Below are positions 56,782 to 63,897 of a stretch of DNA of 64,000 nt, in pieces. Where the stretch lies: assembly GCF_020149915.1 (NCBI RefSeq), contig NZ_CP083760.1:1984001-2048000 (forward strand). The letters are read 5' to 3'. The translations under genes and the position numbers were made by a program. Origin of the DNA: Candidatus Sulfidibacterium hydrothermale (GTDB taxonomy: Bacteria; Bacteroidota; Bacteroidia; Bacteroidales; F082). The notes under the pieces are model-generated. The model made no database searches. It was not told where the DNA came from and saw nothing but the letters and a program-made list of their open reading frames with translations. Numbering within the stretch: the stretch's first letter is position 1; every line of letters starts with the position of its first letter.

Positions 56782-56810
56782 TTGTTTAATTCAAAAAACG
56801 AATATATTTG
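56782..56810 (+). promoter_or_regulatory. Promoter of the arginine operon
   Basis: TTG (56782-56784), 18 bp, TATATTTG (56803-56810). The RNA would start a few bases before the leader ATG at 56821, making the leader almost leaderless. Confidence 0.65.
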
Positions 56811-56820
56811 CCCCCAAGTT

Positions 56821-56925
56821 ATGAAGCAAGAAAATACATATCCATACATCGCAAAACAACGTCCTGTTGTTCATGTATTTTTTGTAGCTTCTCATAGGAT
56901 GCCGAGGCCCCCCTTCGGGGTGTAA
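56821..56925 (+). CDS. Leader peptide candidate of the arginine operon
   Basis: 34 codons, MKQENTYPYIAKQRPVVHVF then FVASHRMPRPPFGV. It has three Arg codons (CGT, AGG, AGG) and a Pro-rich C-terminus (PRPP), which can slow or stall ribosomes. The last codons form the stem CCCC-CTTC-GGGG. The spacing after the promoter leaves almost no 5' UTR. Position ahead of arginine genes suggests attenuation by arginine or a related metabolite; no such peptide is known to me for this operon. Confidence 0.5.
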   Translation: MKQENTYPYIAKQRPVVHVFFVASHRMPRPPFGV

Positions 56926-56953
56926 GTTGTTTTGCGGGGTTCCGTACCCTGCC
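56851..56953 (+). promoter_or_regulatory. Alternative hairpins of the arginine leader
   Basis: GCAAAACAAC (56851-56860) can pair perfectly with GTTGTTTTGC (56926-56935), but its AACAAC part can instead pair with GTTGTT (56866-56871). A further stem GCGGGGT/ACCCTGC (56934-56953) shares two bases with the long pairing. These are mutually exclusive folds, as in attenuators. Confidence 0.5.
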
Positions 56954-57003
56954 GTTTCCAGGTTATCATTTTCAATCATCCATTATTTTTAAAAAGTTAA
57001 ATC

Positions 57004-57672
57004 ATGCAAGTTGCTGTGATAGTGGCTAATCAAAGTCACGAAAAATATGCACAGGCCGTATGCGATATGATAGAAGAGGCGGCTAAACTCAGGGGAACAG
57101 GTATTGCCAAAAGAAAACCGGAATACATCCGGGAAAAAATCCATAAAGGCAATGCCGTTATTGCACTGGAAGGCGAAAAAATTGTTGGGTTCTGCTATAT
57201 CGAAAGCTGGCAAGGACATCAATTTGTAGCGAATTCCGGTCTGATCGTTCACCCCGATTACCGGAAAACCGGACTGGCTAAAAAAATAAAGACGGAAATC
57301 TTTCAGCTGTCACGGAAAAAATTCCCGAATTCAAAGATTTTCGGCATTACAACCAGCCTGGCAGTGATGAAAATCAATTCGGAATTAGGATACAAGCCGG
57401 TAACTTTCTCGGAACTCACCACCGATGAAACTTTCTGGAAAGGATGCGAAAGTTGTAAGAATTACGACATTCTTTGCCGGACAGGACGAAAGATGTGCCT
57501 GTGTACCGGTATGGTTTACGATCCGGCAAAAGAAAAAACAGCCGATTCGCTCCAAAAGAAACAGAAAAACAGTTCGTGGGAACAATTTAAAAAGTTTCTG
57601 AAAACACAACGCGAACGTTTTCCTGTAAAAAAATCACTTTACCCCAAAATCAGTAAAATATTACACAAATAA
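57004..57672 (+). CDS. GNAT acetyltransferase, probable N-acetylglutamate synthase
   Basis: 222 residues. GNAT fold with VHPDYRKTGLAKKIK as the acetyl-CoA loop. A Cys-rich stretch CESCKNYDILCRTGRKMCLC follows. As first gene of the arginine operon, it most likely makes N-acetyl (or N-acyl) glutamate. The C-terminal 60 basic residues are unusual for a GNAT protein. Confidence 0.75.
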   Translation: MQVAVIVANQSHEKYAQAVCDMIEEAAKLRGTGIAKRKPEYIREKIHKGNAVIALEGEKIVGFCYIESWQGHQFVANSGLIVHPDYRKTGLAKKIKTEIFQLSRKKFPNSKIFGITTSLAVMKINSELGYKPVTFSELTTDETFWKGCESCKNYDILCRTGRKMCLCTGMVYDPAKEKTADSLQKKQKNSSWEQFKKFLKTQRERFPVKKSLYPKISKILHK

Positions 57673-57737: not shown

Positions 57738-58928
57738 ATGAAGAAAAAAGTATTGCTTGCCTTTAGCGGAGGACTCGACACATCGTATTGCGTAAAATAT
57801 TTTATTCATGATAAAGATCTTGAAGTACATACCGCTATTGTGAACACCGGCGGATTTTCACCCGAAGAGCTCAAAAAAATTGAAGAACATGCGTTGAAAC
57901 TGGGAGCCAAAACCCACCAAACCATTGATGGTACAGCCGATTTTTACGACCACATCGTTAAATACCTGATATTTGGTAATATCCTGAAAAACAACACATA
58001 CCCATTATCCGTAAGTGCCGAGCGCATTTACCAGGCCAAAGCGCTGGCCGAATACGCCAAAAAAATAGGAGCCGATTATATTGCCCACGGCAGCACGGGT
58101 GCCGGAAACGACCAGATTCGTTTCGATTTGGTCTTCCAACTGGTGGCTCCTGAGCTGGAAATTCTTACCCCGGTTCGCAACCAGGTGTTAAGCCGCCAGG
58201 ATGAAATTGCTTATCTGAAAAAATACGGCGTGACCGTTCAATGGGAAAAATCAAAATACTCACTCAATAAAGGACTTTGGGGAACCAGCATCGGGGGAAA
58301 AGAAACCCTGACATCGCATGAAGCCTTACCCGAAGAGGCTTTTCTTTCGCATGTCGAAGAAACAGAACCCAAAACCATTGAAATCGGTTTTGAAAAAGGC
58401 GAAATCGTTACGCTCAACGGCAAAAACATCCACCCGGTGGAAGCCATCCAAAAAATTGACCAATGGGCATCAGCCTACGCTATCGGCCGGGATATGCACA
58501 CCGGCGATACCATTATTGGCATCAAAGGCCGTATCGGCTTTGAAGCCGCCGCCGCATCGGTTATTATAAAATCACATCATGTACTTGAAAAACATACGCT
58601 TACCAAATGGCAACTCTATTGGAAAGAACAACTGGCCAATTGGTACGGCATGTTCCTGCACGAAGCTCAATATTTTGAACCGGTGATGCGAAATATCGAA
58701 AACTTCCTGACCGATACCCAGAAAAATGTTACCGGTACCGTGAAAGTAAAATTTATTCCTTACCGTTTTGAAGTATTGGGAATTCAGTCTGAACATGATC
58801 TGATGAATTCGGGTTTTGGCGATTACGGTGAAATCAATAAAGCCTGGACCGGAGAAGACGTAAAAGGCTTCATCAAAATCATGAGCAACCCGATGAAAAT
58901 TTATCAAAAAGTAAACGGAACGTTATGA
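57738..58928 (+). CDS. argG: Argininosuccinate synthase
   Basis: 396 residues, usual length. AFSGGLDTSYCVKYF is the ATP pyrophosphatase loop; HGSTGAGNDQIRFD and the SIGGKETLTSHEALPEEAF region bind citrulline and aspartate. Joins citrulline and aspartate. Its stop overlaps the argC start (ATGA). Confidence 0.95.
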   Translation: MKKKVLLAFSGGLDTSYCVKYFIHDKDLEVHTAIVNTGGFSPEELKKIEEHALKLGAKTHQTIDGTADFYDHIVKYLIFGNILKNNTYPLSVSAERIYQAKALAEYAKKIGADYIAHGSTGAGNDQIRFDLVFQLVAPELEILTPVRNQVLSRQDEIAYLKKYGVTVQWEKSKYSLNKGLWGTSIGGKETLTSHEALPEEAFLSHVEETEPKTIEIGFEKGEIVTLNGKNIHPVEAIQKIDQWASAYAIGRDMHTGDTIIGIKGRIGFEAAAASVIIKSHHVLEKHTLTKWQLYWKEQLANWYGMFLHEAQYFEPVMRNIENFLTDTQKNVTGTVKVKFIPYRFEVLGIQSEHDLMNSGFGDYGEINKAWTGEDVKGFIKIMSNPMKIYQKVNGTL

Positions 58929-59905
58929 TACAAGTAGGAATTGTTGGCGGCACCGGATACGTGGCCGGAGAATTATTGCGTATTTTAATGCTTCACACCG
59001 GGGTGGAAATCCGGTTTGTGTATAGCCATTCGCATGCCGGAGAAAAAATAACAACCGTACACGATGATCTTTTCCCTTTGGAAAATATGTACTTCACCGA
59101 CAAAGTATTTCCGGATGCCGATGTGGTTTTTCTATGTCTTGGTCATGGCCATTCCAGCCGGTTTTTGACAGAAAATCACTTTTCGGAAAAAACAAAAATC
59201 ATCGATCTGAGCAATGACTTCCGGTTAAAGGAAAATCGGCAATTTGGAAACCGCCATTTTGTTTACGGGCTGACCGAAATAAACCATCAGCAGGTACAAA
59301 CAGCTGATTCCACAGCCAATCCGGGATGCTTTGCCACTGCTATACAATTGGCCCTGTTACCTTTGGCACATGACAAATTATTGGAAAACGAAATCCATAT
59401 CCACGGAATCACCGGATCTACCGGCGCAGGAAAAGGACTTTCTGAAACCACCCATTTTAGCTGGCGAAACAATAACATTTCGGTTTATAAGGCCTTTACT
59501 CACCAGCACCTTGGCGAAATCAAAGAAACACTAACCAGCTACCAAAAAGAAGCCTCCCGGTATCCTTTTCATTTTATTCCCTTTCGGGGTGATTTTTCGC
59601 GGGGAATCTTTGTTACGGCCTACACCCGGAGTGCTCTCTCCGAAAAAGAGCTCCAGGAAAAATACCGCCAATTTTATGCTAAAAGTATTTTTACCCGGGT
59701 TACGGATCAAAACATTCACCTGAAACAGGTAGTGAATACCAATTATTGCTTAATCCATGTTGAAAAACATGAAAATATGGCTTTCATAACAGCTGCCATC
59801 GATAACTTATTAAAAGGAGCAGCAGGTCAGGCTGTTGAAAATATGAACCTGATGTGTGGTTTCCCGCAGGATACCGGATTGAAATTAAAAGCTGTTTATT
59901 ATTAA
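58925..59905 (+). CDS. argC: N-acetyl-gamma-glutamyl-phosphate reductase
   Basis: 326 residues. GIVGGTGYVAGELLRIL is the NADP-binding loop, NPGCFATAIQLALLPL holds the catalytic Cys, HQHLGEI the catalytic His. Third step of ornithine synthesis. Confidence 0.95.
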   Translation: MIQVGIVGGTGYVAGELLRILMLHTGVEIRFVYSHSHAGEKITTVHDDLFPLENMYFTDKVFPDADVVFLCLGHGHSSRFLTENHFSEKTKIIDLSNDFRLKENRQFGNRHFVYGLTEINHQQVQTADSTANPGCFATAIQLALLPLAHDKLLENEIHIHGITGSTGAGKGLSETTHFSWRNNNISVYKAFTHQHLGEIKETLTSYQKEASRYPFHFIPFRGDFSRGIFVTAYTRSALSEKELQEKYRQFYAKSIFTRVTDQNIHLKQVVNTNYCLIHVEKHENMAFITAAIDNLLKGAAGQAVENMNLMCGFPQDTGLKLKAVYY

Positions 59906-60028
59906 GAAGTTAGAAGTAGGAAGTCGGAAGTTGGAAGCGGGGAGTGAGGAACATTAATTTTTAAAAACAGGATTCAAATACAGAAAAAAGTTTAGCACAA
60001 AATGGTAGAAAATCTTAAAAATAAAAAC

Positions 60029-60835
60029 ATGAACAAGACAACCATTGCCATTATCGGAGCCGGAAATCTCGGTATGGCCATCATCAAAGGATTATTATCA
60101 TCGTCTTTAAAAAAAGACATTCAGATTATTGCCACAAAGAGAAAACTTCCGGAAAAACAATTATTTAACGCTGATAATCTATATTTTACAAAAGATAACG
60201 GAGAAGCCGTACAAAAAGCCGATGTGGTGATTTTCTCGGTGCAACCCGATCAATTCCAAACCATCGTTTCGGATGTTAAACCCTATTTAAAACATCAGGT
60301 GCTTATTTCTACCATTACCGGATTAACATTGGAAGCACTGCAAAACACACTGGGAAAAGAGAGCCGTATTGTCCGCTCCATGCCCAATACAGCCATTGCC
60401 GTAAGCCAAAGCATGACCTGTTTAAGTTATACGGGTGACGACGAAAGTATCCAAATGGCAGAAACCATTTTTAACACACTGGGCAAAACCCTTATTATTG
60501 AAGATGAACTCATGCAGGCGGCTACCGTTTTAGGCGCCAGCGGAATAGCTTTCTGGATGCGACTCATCCGGGCTACCACCCAAGGCGGAATCCAGCTGGG
60601 TTTTGATGCCGACGAAGCCAAAGCCATTGCGGTGCAAACCTGTCTTGGTGCAGCCAGCATTCTGGCAGAAAACAATCATGCGCACCCTGAAAATGAAATT
60701 GATAAAGTAACTACCCCAAAAGGTTGTACCATACGCGGACTGAACGAAATGGAATACAGAGGATTAAGCTCTGCGCTTATCCGCGGATTAACCGCTTCGT
60801 ATGAAATGATTTCTCAAATCAAAGAAAAAATGTAG
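60029..60835 (+). CDS. proC: Pyrroline-5-carboxylate reductase
   Basis: 268 residues from ATG 60029 (MNKTTIAIIGAGNLGMAI, dinucleotide loop); an earlier ATG at 60002 is less likely. VRSMPNTAIAVSQSMTCL and VTTPKGCTIRGLNEME are ProC signatures. Last step of proline synthesis, placed within the arginine operon, linking two glutamate-derived pathways. Confidence 0.93.
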   Translation: MNKTTIAIIGAGNLGMAIIKGLLSSSLKKDIQIIATKRKLPEKQLFNADNLYFTKDNGEAVQKADVVIFSVQPDQFQTIVSDVKPYLKHQVLISTITGLTLEALQNTLGKESRIVRSMPNTAIAVSQSMTCLSYTGDDESIQMAETIFNTLGKTLIIEDELMQAATVLGASGIAFWMRLIRATTQGGIQLGFDADEAKAIAVQTCLGAASILAENNHAHPENEIDKVTTPKGCTIRGLNEMEYRGLSSALIRGLTASYEMISQIKEKM

Positions 60836-60873
60836 GCCCAAAACAACCTACTGGATTCTAAAAACAAAATACA

Positions 60874-62010
60874 ATGAAACTATTCGATGTCTATCCCCGG
60901 TTTAATGTGGAAATAAAAAAGGCTTCCGGTGCCTTTTTGTACGATAACCAGAACCAAAAATATCTCGACCTGTATGGCGGACACGGGGTTATATCTATCG
61001 GGCATACCCATTTGGTTTACACGGCCATGATCAAACAACAGCTGGAAAAGCTGGGATTTTATTCCAACTCGGTTCAGCTTCCCATACAAGAAAAACTGGC
61101 CACCCAGCTCACCACTTTCTCCGGTTATCCTGAATACACGTTATTTTTGTGCAACTCAGGAGCCGAAGCCAATGAAAATGCCCTAAAGCTGGCTTCTTTT
61201 CATACCGGGAAAAAACGGGTCATCGCCTTTAAGAACAGTTTTCACGGAAGAACAGCTGCCGCGCTCTCGGTAACGGACAATCCGAACCTGTTGGCTCCAC
61301 TTCACACCGAAACCTTTCCGGTGGACTTTCTCCCGTTGAACGATCGGCAGGAATGGAACAAGGCACTGGAAAAAGACGATATCTGTGCTGTGATTGTAGA
61401 AGGAATACAAGGCGTGGGCGGTTTGGATATGCCGGAACCTTCTTTTCTTCAGAAAATGCGTGAGGATACCCGGAAAAAAGGAATTGTACTCATCCTGGAT
61501 GAAATACAAAGTGGTTATGGAAGATCCGGCAAATTCTTTGCCCATCAGTTTGCCGGTATAAAACCAGACCTAATTACAATGGCCAAAGGAATGGGAAATG
61601 GATTTCCTATCGCCGGAGTACTTATCAGTCCTGAATTTGAAGCCCGTGCCGGAATGTTGGGAACTACTTTTGGCGGCAACCCATTGGCCTGTGCAGCCGG
61701 CTTGGCCGTTTTACACGTCATGCAACAGGAAAACCTGATGGAAAATGTTCATGAAGTAAATGATTTTCTGATACAATCGTTATCAAAGATTCCTCAAATC
61801 AAAGAAATAAAAGGAAAAGGATTAATGCTGGGACTGGCTTTTGACTTTCCGGTACAGGAATTACGAAAAAAATTATTGTACGAACATCACATCCTTACCG
61901 GTTCGTCAGCCAATCCGAACTTACTTCGAATTTTGCCGCCGTTGAGCATTCAACGCGAACAAATTGCCGCCTTTCCGGGAGCATTAAAAAAAGCACTACA
62001 ATCAAAATAA
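60874..62010 (+). CDS. argD: Acetylornithine aminotransferase
   Basis: 378 residues. LILDEIQSGYGRSGKFFAHQ (PLP aspartate) and ITMAKGMGNGFPIAGVL (PLP lysine). Class III aminotransferase. 38 bp after proC. Confidence 0.92.
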   Translation: MKLFDVYPRFNVEIKKASGAFLYDNQNQKYLDLYGGHGVISIGHTHLVYTAMIKQQLEKLGFYSNSVQLPIQEKLATQLTTFSGYPEYTLFLCNSGAEANENALKLASFHTGKKRVIAFKNSFHGRTAAALSVTDNPNLLAPLHTETFPVDFLPLNDRQEWNKALEKDDICAVIVEGIQGVGGLDMPEPSFLQKMREDTRKKGIVLILDEIQSGYGRSGKFFAHQFAGIKPDLITMAKGMGNGFPIAGVLISPEFEARAGMLGTTFGGNPLACAAGLAVLHVMQQENLMENVHEVNDFLIQSLSKIPQIKEIKGKGLMLGLAFDFPVQELRKKLLYEHHILTGSSANPNLLRILPPLSIQREQIAAFPGALKKALQSK

Positions 62011-62039
62011 AAACGCACAAAACCACAATACAAGCAACA

Positions 62040-62831
62040 ATGATTTCTTCGGAAAAAGAAAAAATAAGCATCATTAAGATAGGGGGGAAGCTGCTGGATA
62101 ATCCGTTGCGTCTCAAATTTTTCCTGGATTTACTCGCCCAATGGAAAGGTAAAAAAATATTGGTGCATGGGGGAGGCTCGGAAGCCAGCCGGTTCAGCCA
62201 GCAATTGGGAATTGAACCGCAAATGATTAACGGACGCCGGATTACCTCTGAAAAGGATATCCAAATTGTTACCATGGTTTATGCCGGATGGCTTAATAAA
62301 AAACTGGTAACGGCCCTTCAAATGCGGAATTGTAATGCCCTGGGACTATCCGGAGCAGACGGAAACGTTATTCTGGCAGAAAAACGCCCGGTCAAAGACA
62401 TTGATTATGGCTTTGTCGGAGATGTTAAAAAGGTCCGTGCCGATTTTCTTCAACTTCTCTTAAAACAAGATATTACACCCGTTTTAAACGCGATAACCCA
62501 CGATAGCAAAGGAAATTTATTGAATACCAATGCCGACACCATTGCAGCTGAAACAGCCATTGCAATGAGCCGGTTTTTTGAAACAACACTTATCTACTGC
62601 TTTGAAAAACAAGGCGTTTTGACCGATGTAGAAGATGAAAATTCTGTGATTCCAGAAATGAACAAGACGCTTTACCAACAAATGAAGGAAACAGGACAGA
62701 TTCACCAGGGAATGCTCCCCAAACTGCATACCGGTTTTGATGCACTGCAACGCGGGGTGCATCGCGTTTTTATCGGAAACGAAACCATACTGCAGGGAAA
62801 AAATACACTTTTCACGCAACTAAAACAATAA
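62040..62831 (+). CDS. argB: N-acetylglutamate kinase
   Basis: 263 residues. IIKIGGKLLDN, ILVHGGGSEASR and NALGLSGADGNVILAEKRP are amino-acid kinase motifs. Second step of the pathway. 29 bp after argD, with no carbamoyltransferase between them. Confidence 0.93.
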   Translation: MISSEKEKISIIKIGGKLLDNPLRLKFFLDLLAQWKGKKILVHGGGSEASRFSQQLGIEPQMINGRRITSEKDIQIVTMVYAGWLNKKLVTALQMRNCNALGLSGADGNVILAEKRPVKDIDYGFVGDVKKVRADFLQLLLKQDITPVLNAITHDSKGNLLNTNADTIAAETAIAMSRFFETTLIYCFEKQGVLTDVEDENSVIPEMNKTLYQQMKETGQIHQGMLPKLHTGFDALQRGVHRVFIGNETILQGKNTLFTQLKQ

Positions 62832-62835
62832 CAAA

Positions 62836-63897
62836 ATGGAAATCAATGAATTAAAACATAAAGGACTGAATTTATTAAAGCATCTGATACAAACCCCGTC
62901 TTTTTCAGGAGAAGAAGAAAAAGTCAGTCTTCTCATCCGGCAGTACCTGGCCGATTTCGGGGTCGACTATTCCACCTTGAATAACAATGTGTATGCTTTA
63001 AACCGGTATTTCGATCCGCAAAAGCCGGTCATTCTGCTCAATTCACACATGGATACGGTAAAACCCAATAAAGGATATACCCGCGACCCGTTTACGCCCG
63101 AAGTGGAAAATGGCCGCTTGTACGGGCTGGGAAGTAATGATGCCGGAGGTCCACTGGTTTCGTTACTGAACACATTCATCTATTTTTACAACCATAAAAA
63201 CCTGAAATACAATCTGCTTATAGCCGCTACCGCCGAAGAAGAAAGTTCCGGGCCAAACGGGCTGAACAGTTTGCTGGAACATCTTCCGCCGCTGGCATTT
63301 GCCGTGGTGGGCGAACCTACACAAATGCAAATGGCCATTGCCGAAAAAGGGCTGCTGGTGATTGATGCTTATGCACCGGGAAAAGCCGGCCATGCCGCAC
63401 ACGACAATACGGACAATGCCATATACAACGCACTGGACGATATTCAAACCTTACGGAATATTTCATTCGAAAAAGTTTCTCCCTTACTGGGGAAAGTAAA
63501 AGTAACTGTTACCCAAATTGAAGCCGGAGAACAGCACAATGTGGTTCCGGCTTCCTGCCACTTTGTAATTGATGTCCGGGTAAATGAAAAATATTCCAAC
63601 CGGGAAGTCTTTGATATCCTTGATAAAAAAACCAAAAGTAAGCTGCAGGCCCGGTCGTTTCATCTGAATTCGTCCTCCATTAGTCCGGACCATCCTTTTG
63701 TGTTGGCAGGAATCAAACACGGACGTTCCATCTACGGATCACCAACGCTTTCCGACCAGTCGGTATTAAACTGCCCGTCGTTGAAAATGGGCCCCGGTGA
63801 TTCCAAAAGATCGCACAGCGCCGATGAATACATCACATTAGATGAATTTTTCGATGCCACTGACCTGTTTATTCATATTTTTGAAGAAATCTTGTAA
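62836..63897 (+). CDS. argE: M20-family deacylase, ArgE type
   Basis: 353 residues. LNSHMDTVKP and GSNDAGGP give zinc ligands, AATAEEESSG the catalytic Glu, HSADEYI the last His. Removes the N-acyl group from acylornithine or, in Bacteroidota, acylcitrulline. 4 bp after argB. Confidence 0.88.
   Translation: MEINELKHKGLNLLKHLIQTPSFSGEEEKVSLLIRQYLADFGVDYSTLNNNVYALNRYFDPQKPVILLNSHMDTVKPNKGYTRDPFTPEVENGRLYGLGSNDAGGPLVSLLNTFIYFYNHKNLKYNLLIAATAEEESSGPNGLNSLLEHLPPLAFAVVGEPTQMQMAIAEKGLLVIDAYAPGKAGHAAHDNTDNAIYNALDDIQTLRNISFEKVSPLLGKVKVTVTQIEAGEQHNVVPASCHFVIDVRVNEKYSNREVFDILDKKTKSKLQARSFHLNSSSISPDHPFVLAGIKHGRSIYGSPTLSDQSVLNCPSLKMGPGDSKRSHSADEYITLDEFFDATDLFIHIFEEIL

Follow-up and report, generated by a model that had tools for sequence, protein, structure and literature searches.

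How is arginine biosynthesis, which is usually taken to be under the control of the ArgR repressor, regulated in bacteria that carry no such repressor? The window analyzed here, a stretch of 64,000 nucleotides from the genome of Candidatus Sulfidibacterium hydrothermale, contains the operon GNAT-argG-argC-proC-argD-argB-argE-type deacylase (Table 1), and the ArgR C-terminal domain (PF02863) was absent from this genome and from all 11 other genomes of the genus (0/12). An initial annotation of the region ahead of this operon had proposed an arginine-sensing leader peptide, in which a promoter is followed within about ten bases by a 34-codon open reading frame (ORF) that ends in HRMPRPPFGV and contains three Arg codons and one Pro-Pro pair, with a strong stem at the end of the ORF, no U-run after the last hairpin, and alternative pairings chosen by the position of the ribosome. 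We evaluated these proposals by comparing this leader with the corresponding regions of its genus, of the Flavobacteriaceae and of the wider Bacteroidia.

The description of the leader itself was accurate to the letter. Both putative promoter elements were found, with a spacing of 18 nt between TTG and TATATTTG, and the ATG of the ORF lies 10 nt past TATATTTG; these elements recur at equal distance in the genus relatives, although transcription starts and start codons were in all cases deduced from sequence. A sigma-70 promoter scan of the window returned nothing useful; Bacteroidota promoters are of a type other than the one that such a scan models. The strong stem is present over the last codons (P2), the last hairpin of the leader is followed by no U-run, and a terminator scan found no intrinsic terminator with a U-run ahead of GNAT in the window region. 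Rfam covariance models, applied to the window and six related loci, gave no matches above the gathering score.

Table 1. Positions of the leader elements and operon genes in the window, and of the his leader in the same genome
Feature	Position	Strand	Basis
Promoter, Bacteroidota-type -33/-7 elements (TTG; TATATTTG)	56782-56784; 56803-56810	+	Sequence
Leader ORF, 34 codons, MKQENTYPYIAKQRPVVHVFFVASHRMPRPPFGV; stop TAA 56923-56925	56821-56925	+	Conserved in genus
Control codons AGG 56896-56898 and AGG 56905-56907	56896-56907	+	Paired AGG in 9/9 genus leaders
P1 hairpin within ORF, AACAAC-GTCCT-GTTGTT	56855-56871	+	RNAalifold, with compensatory changes
P2 hairpin over last codons, just before stop, CCCC-TTC-GGGG, slippery register; stem arms CCCC 56910-56913, GGGG 56917-56920	56908-56920	+	RNAalifold
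U-rich linker, stop to P3	56926-56933	+	Sequence; 7-9 nt across genus
P3 hairpin 3' of stop, GCGGGGT-TCCGT-ACCCTGC	56934-56952	+	Present in 9/9 genus members
Long-range pairing proposed earlier, left arm GCAAAACAAC, right arm GTTGTTTTGC	56851-56860; 56926-56935	+	Exact 10-bp inverted repeat
GNAT-family acetyltransferase P0001, first operon gene	57004-57672	+	Pfam Acetyltransf_1, _7 and _10
argG, argininosuccinate synthase, P0002	57738-58928	+	Pfam PF00764/PF20979 and TIGR00032 above cut-off
argC (58925), proC (60002), argD (60874), argB (62040), ArgE/DapE-family deacylase (62836)	58925-63897	+	NCBIfam and Pfam matches
his leader	L172 about 2228-2281; G000:C1 near 2,705,600	minus in L172	

Leader ORF and hairpins in the genus

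GNAT and argG were both found in nine of the 12 genus genomes, and all nine carry a leader ORF of 34-37 codons in the same place. The remaining three (G005, G009 and G010) were without argG, GNAT or any strong leader match, a joint loss that suggests arginine auxotrophy or incomplete assemblies. Conservation of the ORF, whose lack the initial annotation had named among the findings that would refute its proposal, was seen in the eight other argG-bearing genomes, with in-frame gaps only: alignment gaps within the ORF were all multiples of three, as compared with gaps of 1-2 nt past the stop, and third codon positions were the most divergent (0.47 vs 0.35 and 0.41). Judged from this alignment, the leader ORF is real and conserved in frame. 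The peptides end in HRMPRPPFGV, FRMTRPPFGV, ARNNRPPFGV, PRNTRPPFGV, PRNNRPPSGV, FRNIRPPFGV, SRIRPPFGV, NRRLRRLRA and RHPRRLRA, and each of the nine leaders has two AGG codons at positions -9/-6 (or -8/-6, -8/-5). In the neighboring genes, no Arg codon is rarer than AGG (2.2% of 89 Arg codons). In the window these two are the only Arg codons near the end of the ORF, a low number that weighs against arginine sensing; the third Arg codon is a CGT at 56860-56862.

RNAalifold analysis of the nine genus leaders predicted exactly three local hairpins, one within the ORF (P1), one over its last codons (P2) and one past the stop (P3). The consensus energy was -19.1, compared with -2.9 +/- 2.0 in column shuffles that preserved the gap pattern and conservation (z -7.9, with 0/500 shuffles as good). 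P3 showed a clean exchange of G-C to A-U (5 vs 4 sequences) and P1 showed two AU-to-GC exchanges, so that the AACAAC/GTTGTT pairing drawn earlier within the ORF is conserved; P2 reads CCCC-UUC-GGGG in seven leaders and CGCC-UUAG-GGCG in two. P3 had not been singled out in the initial annotation, though the arm GTTGTTTTGC touches its first two bases. A P2-P3 covariance model (R2) gave one strong match in each of the nine argG-bearing genomes (the window's own with an E value of 3.7e-21), and no further copies above noise in the genomes searched. One R2 match in a related genome (L151) lies at a site that is not an arg operon.

Arginine leaders and ArgR beyond the genus

Outside the genus, most of the nearest database relatives of the GNAT protein belong to this same operon in flavobacteria. 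In 68 Flavobacteriaceae, an open frame ends 13-26 nt before a P3 core of the form GGAAAU-A-GGUGAGUCC-AUUUCC, with Arg at codon -2 in 68/68, at -3 in 64/68 and at -4 in 46/68, the usual ending being RRRP. These frames contain 3-6 Arg among their last 12 codons (mean 4.2); they were picked for having at least two Arg, so that the totals, though not the position pattern, are slightly selected. Most other open frames of these regions contained 0-2 Arg. A few of the leaders lack an ATG and may begin at TTG or elsewhere, making their starts uncertain. Codons -3 and -4 each mix CGT and CGC, as would be expected if arginine itself were kept. Overall, 95% of the leader Arg codons are CGC or CGT, compared with about 25% in the flanking genes, a share that is approximate in that some counted frames may be wrong. 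Leaders from the loci L036-L111 are nearly all CGC/CGT though AGA is the commonest flanking Arg codon, a bias that could reflect the needs of P2 pairing or a particular tRNA choice.

The flavobacterial P2 reads CCC-GUAA-GGG or GCAC-GUAA-GUGC, with the stop codon within its loop in most leaders. In 34 non-redundant flavobacterial leaders, 93% of the P2/P3 cells were standard pairs, compared with 88% in shuffles, and covariation was 0.204 vs 0.124 (0/500 shuffles); every slid control was far worse. A P3 model, run against 12 flavobacterial genomes, gave a single strong match in each, and all four of the matches that were opened sit at the arg leader, which removed the idea that P3 is a general hairpin found at many operons. 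We also considered and dropped a pairing of a Shine-Dalgarno-like loop sequence, AGGUGA, with the 16S tail; this loop varies (AGGUGU) in several flavobacteria. Bacteroidota ribosomes mostly disregard Shine-Dalgarno sequences.

In an even sample of 295 Bacteroidia genomes, a GNAT match was found in 105 and ArgR in 12. Among 88 upstream regions from this class-wide survey, 30% contained an ORF of 11-70 codons that starts with ATG, lies within 280 nt and has three or more Arg among its last eight codons, a lower bound in that many leaders lie farther away or use other starts. Applied to the reverse complement and to shuffles, this criterion gave 3% and 2%, respectively, and no other amino acid exceeded 9% in these 88 regions, leaving Arg as the only one enriched. 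GNAT-based sampling reaches leaders only where this form of the operon exists, and throughout our comparisons related sequences are not independent. A class-wide search with the flavobacterial model (R3), run with strict filters that left few scored candidates, found only three genomes, a count that is a poor guide to absence. Two loci (L227 and L233) have another layout, with leaders that end in SPRRQPNTAG or LRRRPYAAG and, before GNAT, a GC-rich inverted repeat with a T-run (GGCTTGCC..GGCAGGCCTTTTTT) that resembles a genuine intrinsic terminator; these two loci may use classical attenuation.

The distribution of the repressor was then set beside that of the leader. PF02863 was present in 25/149 relatives, 18 of which also have GNAT, and 14 of these 18 encode ArgR immediately 5' of GNAT, at the leader's place. 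No ArgR was detected in the 29 other genomes behind the flavobacterial, Lewinellaceae and Balneolaceae GNAT-operon loci (0/29). As far as these gene inventories indicate, the distribution of leader and ArgR is complementary. The order argR-GNAT-argG was seen in many other Bacteroidales (G118, G117, G119, G091, G095 and others; loci among L011-L029).

Models for control of the operon

Leaders in many families place conserved Arg codons ahead of these genes, and ArgR is missing where such a leader occurs. The central proposal of an arginine-sensing leader peptide is therefore strongly supported, and we consider it very probable that this regulatory upstream ORF (uORF) reads arginine supply and controls the entire operon from GNAT to argE. 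The sensing half of this model comes from the anatomy, in which a leader ORF that precedes arginine genes closes with Arg codons. Under a shortage of Arg-tRNA, the ribosome would stall on these codons and cover the 5' arm of P2, so that transcription would proceed into the operon. With ample arginine, it would reach the stop and leave, P2 and P3 would form behind it, and expression would be cut before GNAT. Among the structures, only P2 necessarily forms or fails to form according to whether a ribosome sits on the Arg codons, which is why stalling is proposed to hold P2 open and the operon on. The off-step that we favor would be a premature termination of transcription other than the standard intrinsic kind (Rho-dependent or hairpin-assisted); a putative Rho-mediated or other non-intrinsic route, as already raised in the initial annotation, fits the absent U-run.

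The initial annotation had also held that the position of the ribosome chooses the fold, and this was not borne out. P3 was predicted at nearly all ribosome positions on the ORF in 8/9 genus members, so that the thermodynamics show no link between stalling and output, and mutually exclusive antiterminator and terminator hairpins were not found. With a ribosome on each Arg codon, the probability of P3 was 0.89-1.0 in most genus members, falling to about 0.5 in one (L034), and another (L009) stood at 0.7 without a ribosome. In flavobacteria, for which no antiterminator emerged, the mean P3 probability was 0.46 without a ribosome vs 0.61 with a ribosome at the stop. For a contact of the P3 loop with the region of the stop, there was a weak hint (p = 0.02).

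It is possible, and compatible with the arginine-sensing model, that P3 with its pentaloop does the actual switching, being recognized by a protein or by the transcription or translation machinery, and that the peptide only gates access to it; we hold this idea tentatively. The flavobacterial loop is invariant (GGUGWGUCC) above a covarying stem and occurs, as noted, in one strong copy per genome. In the class-wide leaders, a hairpin capped by CC-UAYGY-GG (CCUAYGYGG) lies 13-23 nt past the stop in 9/65, where shuffles give 0.04, and UNNGY pentaloops numbered 13 vs 1.8 in shuffles; the P3 loops of the window (UCCGU), of its relatives (UACGU and UAUGC) and of flavobacteria (UGAGU) all fit UNNGY. 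However, no candidate binder is known, and the loop sequence varies by lineage (UGAGU, UACGC, UCCGU). A broader proposal, which we regard as speculative, is that Bacteroidia own a class-wide control element for the arg operon in ArgR-less lineages: an Arg-codon ORF whose stop lies within or beside one hairpin, and farther on a second, non-terminator hairpin with a conserved UNNGY pentaloop that would be recognized by a factor (or through contact of the stop region with the loop), the position of the ribosome deciding its action without an antiterminator.

A classical attenuator of the trp/his type, in which the ribosome position would decide between an antiterminator and an intrinsic terminator (P3) through alternative pairings, shares the plan of a leader ORF with control codons near its stop and hairpins that follow, and the his operon of the same genome belongs to that type. 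Its leader, MRTTRRHHHHLHFHPLR, lies ahead of hisG and is followed by an intrinsic terminator (ACCCATC-loop-GATGGGTTTTTTC), and the leader end CACTCAG can pair with the terminator's CTGAGTG, as in a textbook attenuator; ribosome-mediated attenuation is therefore already at home in this genome. At the arg leader, a run of at least five T follows P3 in three of the nine genus members (T7 in L008, T5 in L004 and L006), but in only 2/68 flavobacterial leaders, where the sequence 3' of P3 is 18% C and 6% G. Nor did a search for the antiterminator succeed. In Flavobacteriaceae, a swap test of the upstream ORF against the 5' arm of P3 was null (observed -9.0, shuffled -8.8 and swapped -9.2 kcal/mol), and a pairing between the ORF repeat GUCCAUUU and this arm, which looked good in Muricauda, failed this test. 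When 12-nt downstream windows were compared with the upstream ORF, the best of 20 had a z of -2.1, as expected by chance, and the top three signals of an unbiased covariation analysis in Flavobacteriaceae included a P3 pair and a P2 pair, with no convincing partner elsewhere. The null swap tests, the lack of a covarying antiterminator and a P3 mostly without a U-run argue that the leader is not a classical alternative-hairpin switch, and we judge such an attenuator unlikely.

Arrest by the nascent peptide, of the SpeFL or Pro-Pro type, in which the peptide itself would stall the ribosome on ornithine, arginine or polyproline, appears more doubtful still. The leader has 34 codons, as does Salmonella orf34, and the RPPFGV ending recurs in 7/9 genus leaders (once as RPPSGV) and in a distant family (L216), where the leader end RRMRPPFGV resembles that of the window. 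However, this ending is largely dictated by the CCCCCCTTCGGGG hairpin, and endings vary (RPPFGV, RRLRA, RRRP, PRRT, MPRA) while Arg codons and hairpins stay. An alignment of leaders had been suggested earlier as a check for conserved C-terminal residues, and it bore out the Arg codons and not the Pro-Pro pair, which is replaced in two genus members (RRLRA) and in flavobacteria (RRRP), making a Pro-Pro or ornithine-type stall unlikely. A translated uORF that is non-regulatory, or that serves as a translational coupler for GNAT, would agree with the leader-to-GNAT spacing of 75-90 nt that is conserved in the genus, but is very improbable in that it leaves unexplained the Arg specificity, the conservation of P2 and P3, and the complementarity with ArgR. 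The remaining part of the alternative-pairing proposal, a switch in which the arm GCAAAACAAC pairs either with GTTGTT inside the ORF or with GTTGTTTTGC past the stop, can be dismissed almost entirely, as this complementarity, though exact in the window, is private to this genome, with the arm missing from eight genus relatives and the forced long-range fold lying 4 kcal/mol above the minimum with an ensemble probability of 0.003.

Relation to known leaders and implications

Like the ribosome-mediated transcription attenuators of the trp, his, thr, leu and ilv operons, the arg leader has a short ORF close to the start of the transcript that finishes with control codons for the amino acid made by the operon, and hairpins and a biosynthetic operon come after it. 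It differs from them in having no detectable antiterminator, a last hairpin that is mostly without a U-run, a P2 that often encloses the stop, and a P3 loop that is conserved in sequence. The Salmonella orf34/speF leader is likewise a 34-codon uORF with Arg codons and a hairpin downstream of its stop, in which ribosome pausing at low arginine keeps the mRNA and Rho is involved (PMC6386406). However, orf34 controls ornithine decarboxylase, has the core HIRRT..HIMM and an RNase G switch, and bears no sequence relation to the arg leader (PMC6386406). Neither this core nor a downstream speF was found with the genus or flavobacterial leaders, whose operon is one of arginine biosynthesis. In Staphylococcus aureus, the uORF rbfL senses arginine through a rare AGG codon (PMC13009471); unlike the arg leader, it covers the ribosome-binding site of a biofilm regulator and blocks its translation, with no such hairpins and no biosynthetic operon (PMC13009471).

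Within the same phylum, strong clues for leader-peptide attenuation before amino acid operons have been described in Flavobacterium psychrophilum, with pheA and hisG among the genes that carry structured elements, the main text of that study naming no arginine leader (PMC9723704). Motifs associated with uORFs, such as uORFC-8-2 ahead of cysS, resemble the arg leader in their conserved uORF, tandem codons for the relevant amino acid and covarying hairpins, but uORFC-8-2 uses Cys codons and belongs to Rhodobacterales, and a search of that report by terms found no Bacteroidota arginine motif (PMC8632094). In Pseudomonas aeruginosa, the arginine/pyrimidine gene carA is likewise preceded by a leader peptide, for which attenuation has been proposed; this leader differs in its host, in serving carbamoyl-phosphate synthase and in its pyrimidine control (cited in PMC4997734). 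In the open-access literature, to which our search was confined, no arginine leader in Bacteroidota was found. The principle of an arginine-sensing uORF is therefore known, while the arginine element of Bacteroidota, its stop-codon hairpin and the P3 pentaloop appear to be undescribed.

These leaders provide a large comparative set for leader-peptide control without a recognizable antiterminator or intrinsic terminator, and as many of the carriers are cultured flavobacteria, direct testing is possible. ArgR and the leader peptide, two unrelated regulators, appear to substitute for each other upstream of this operon.
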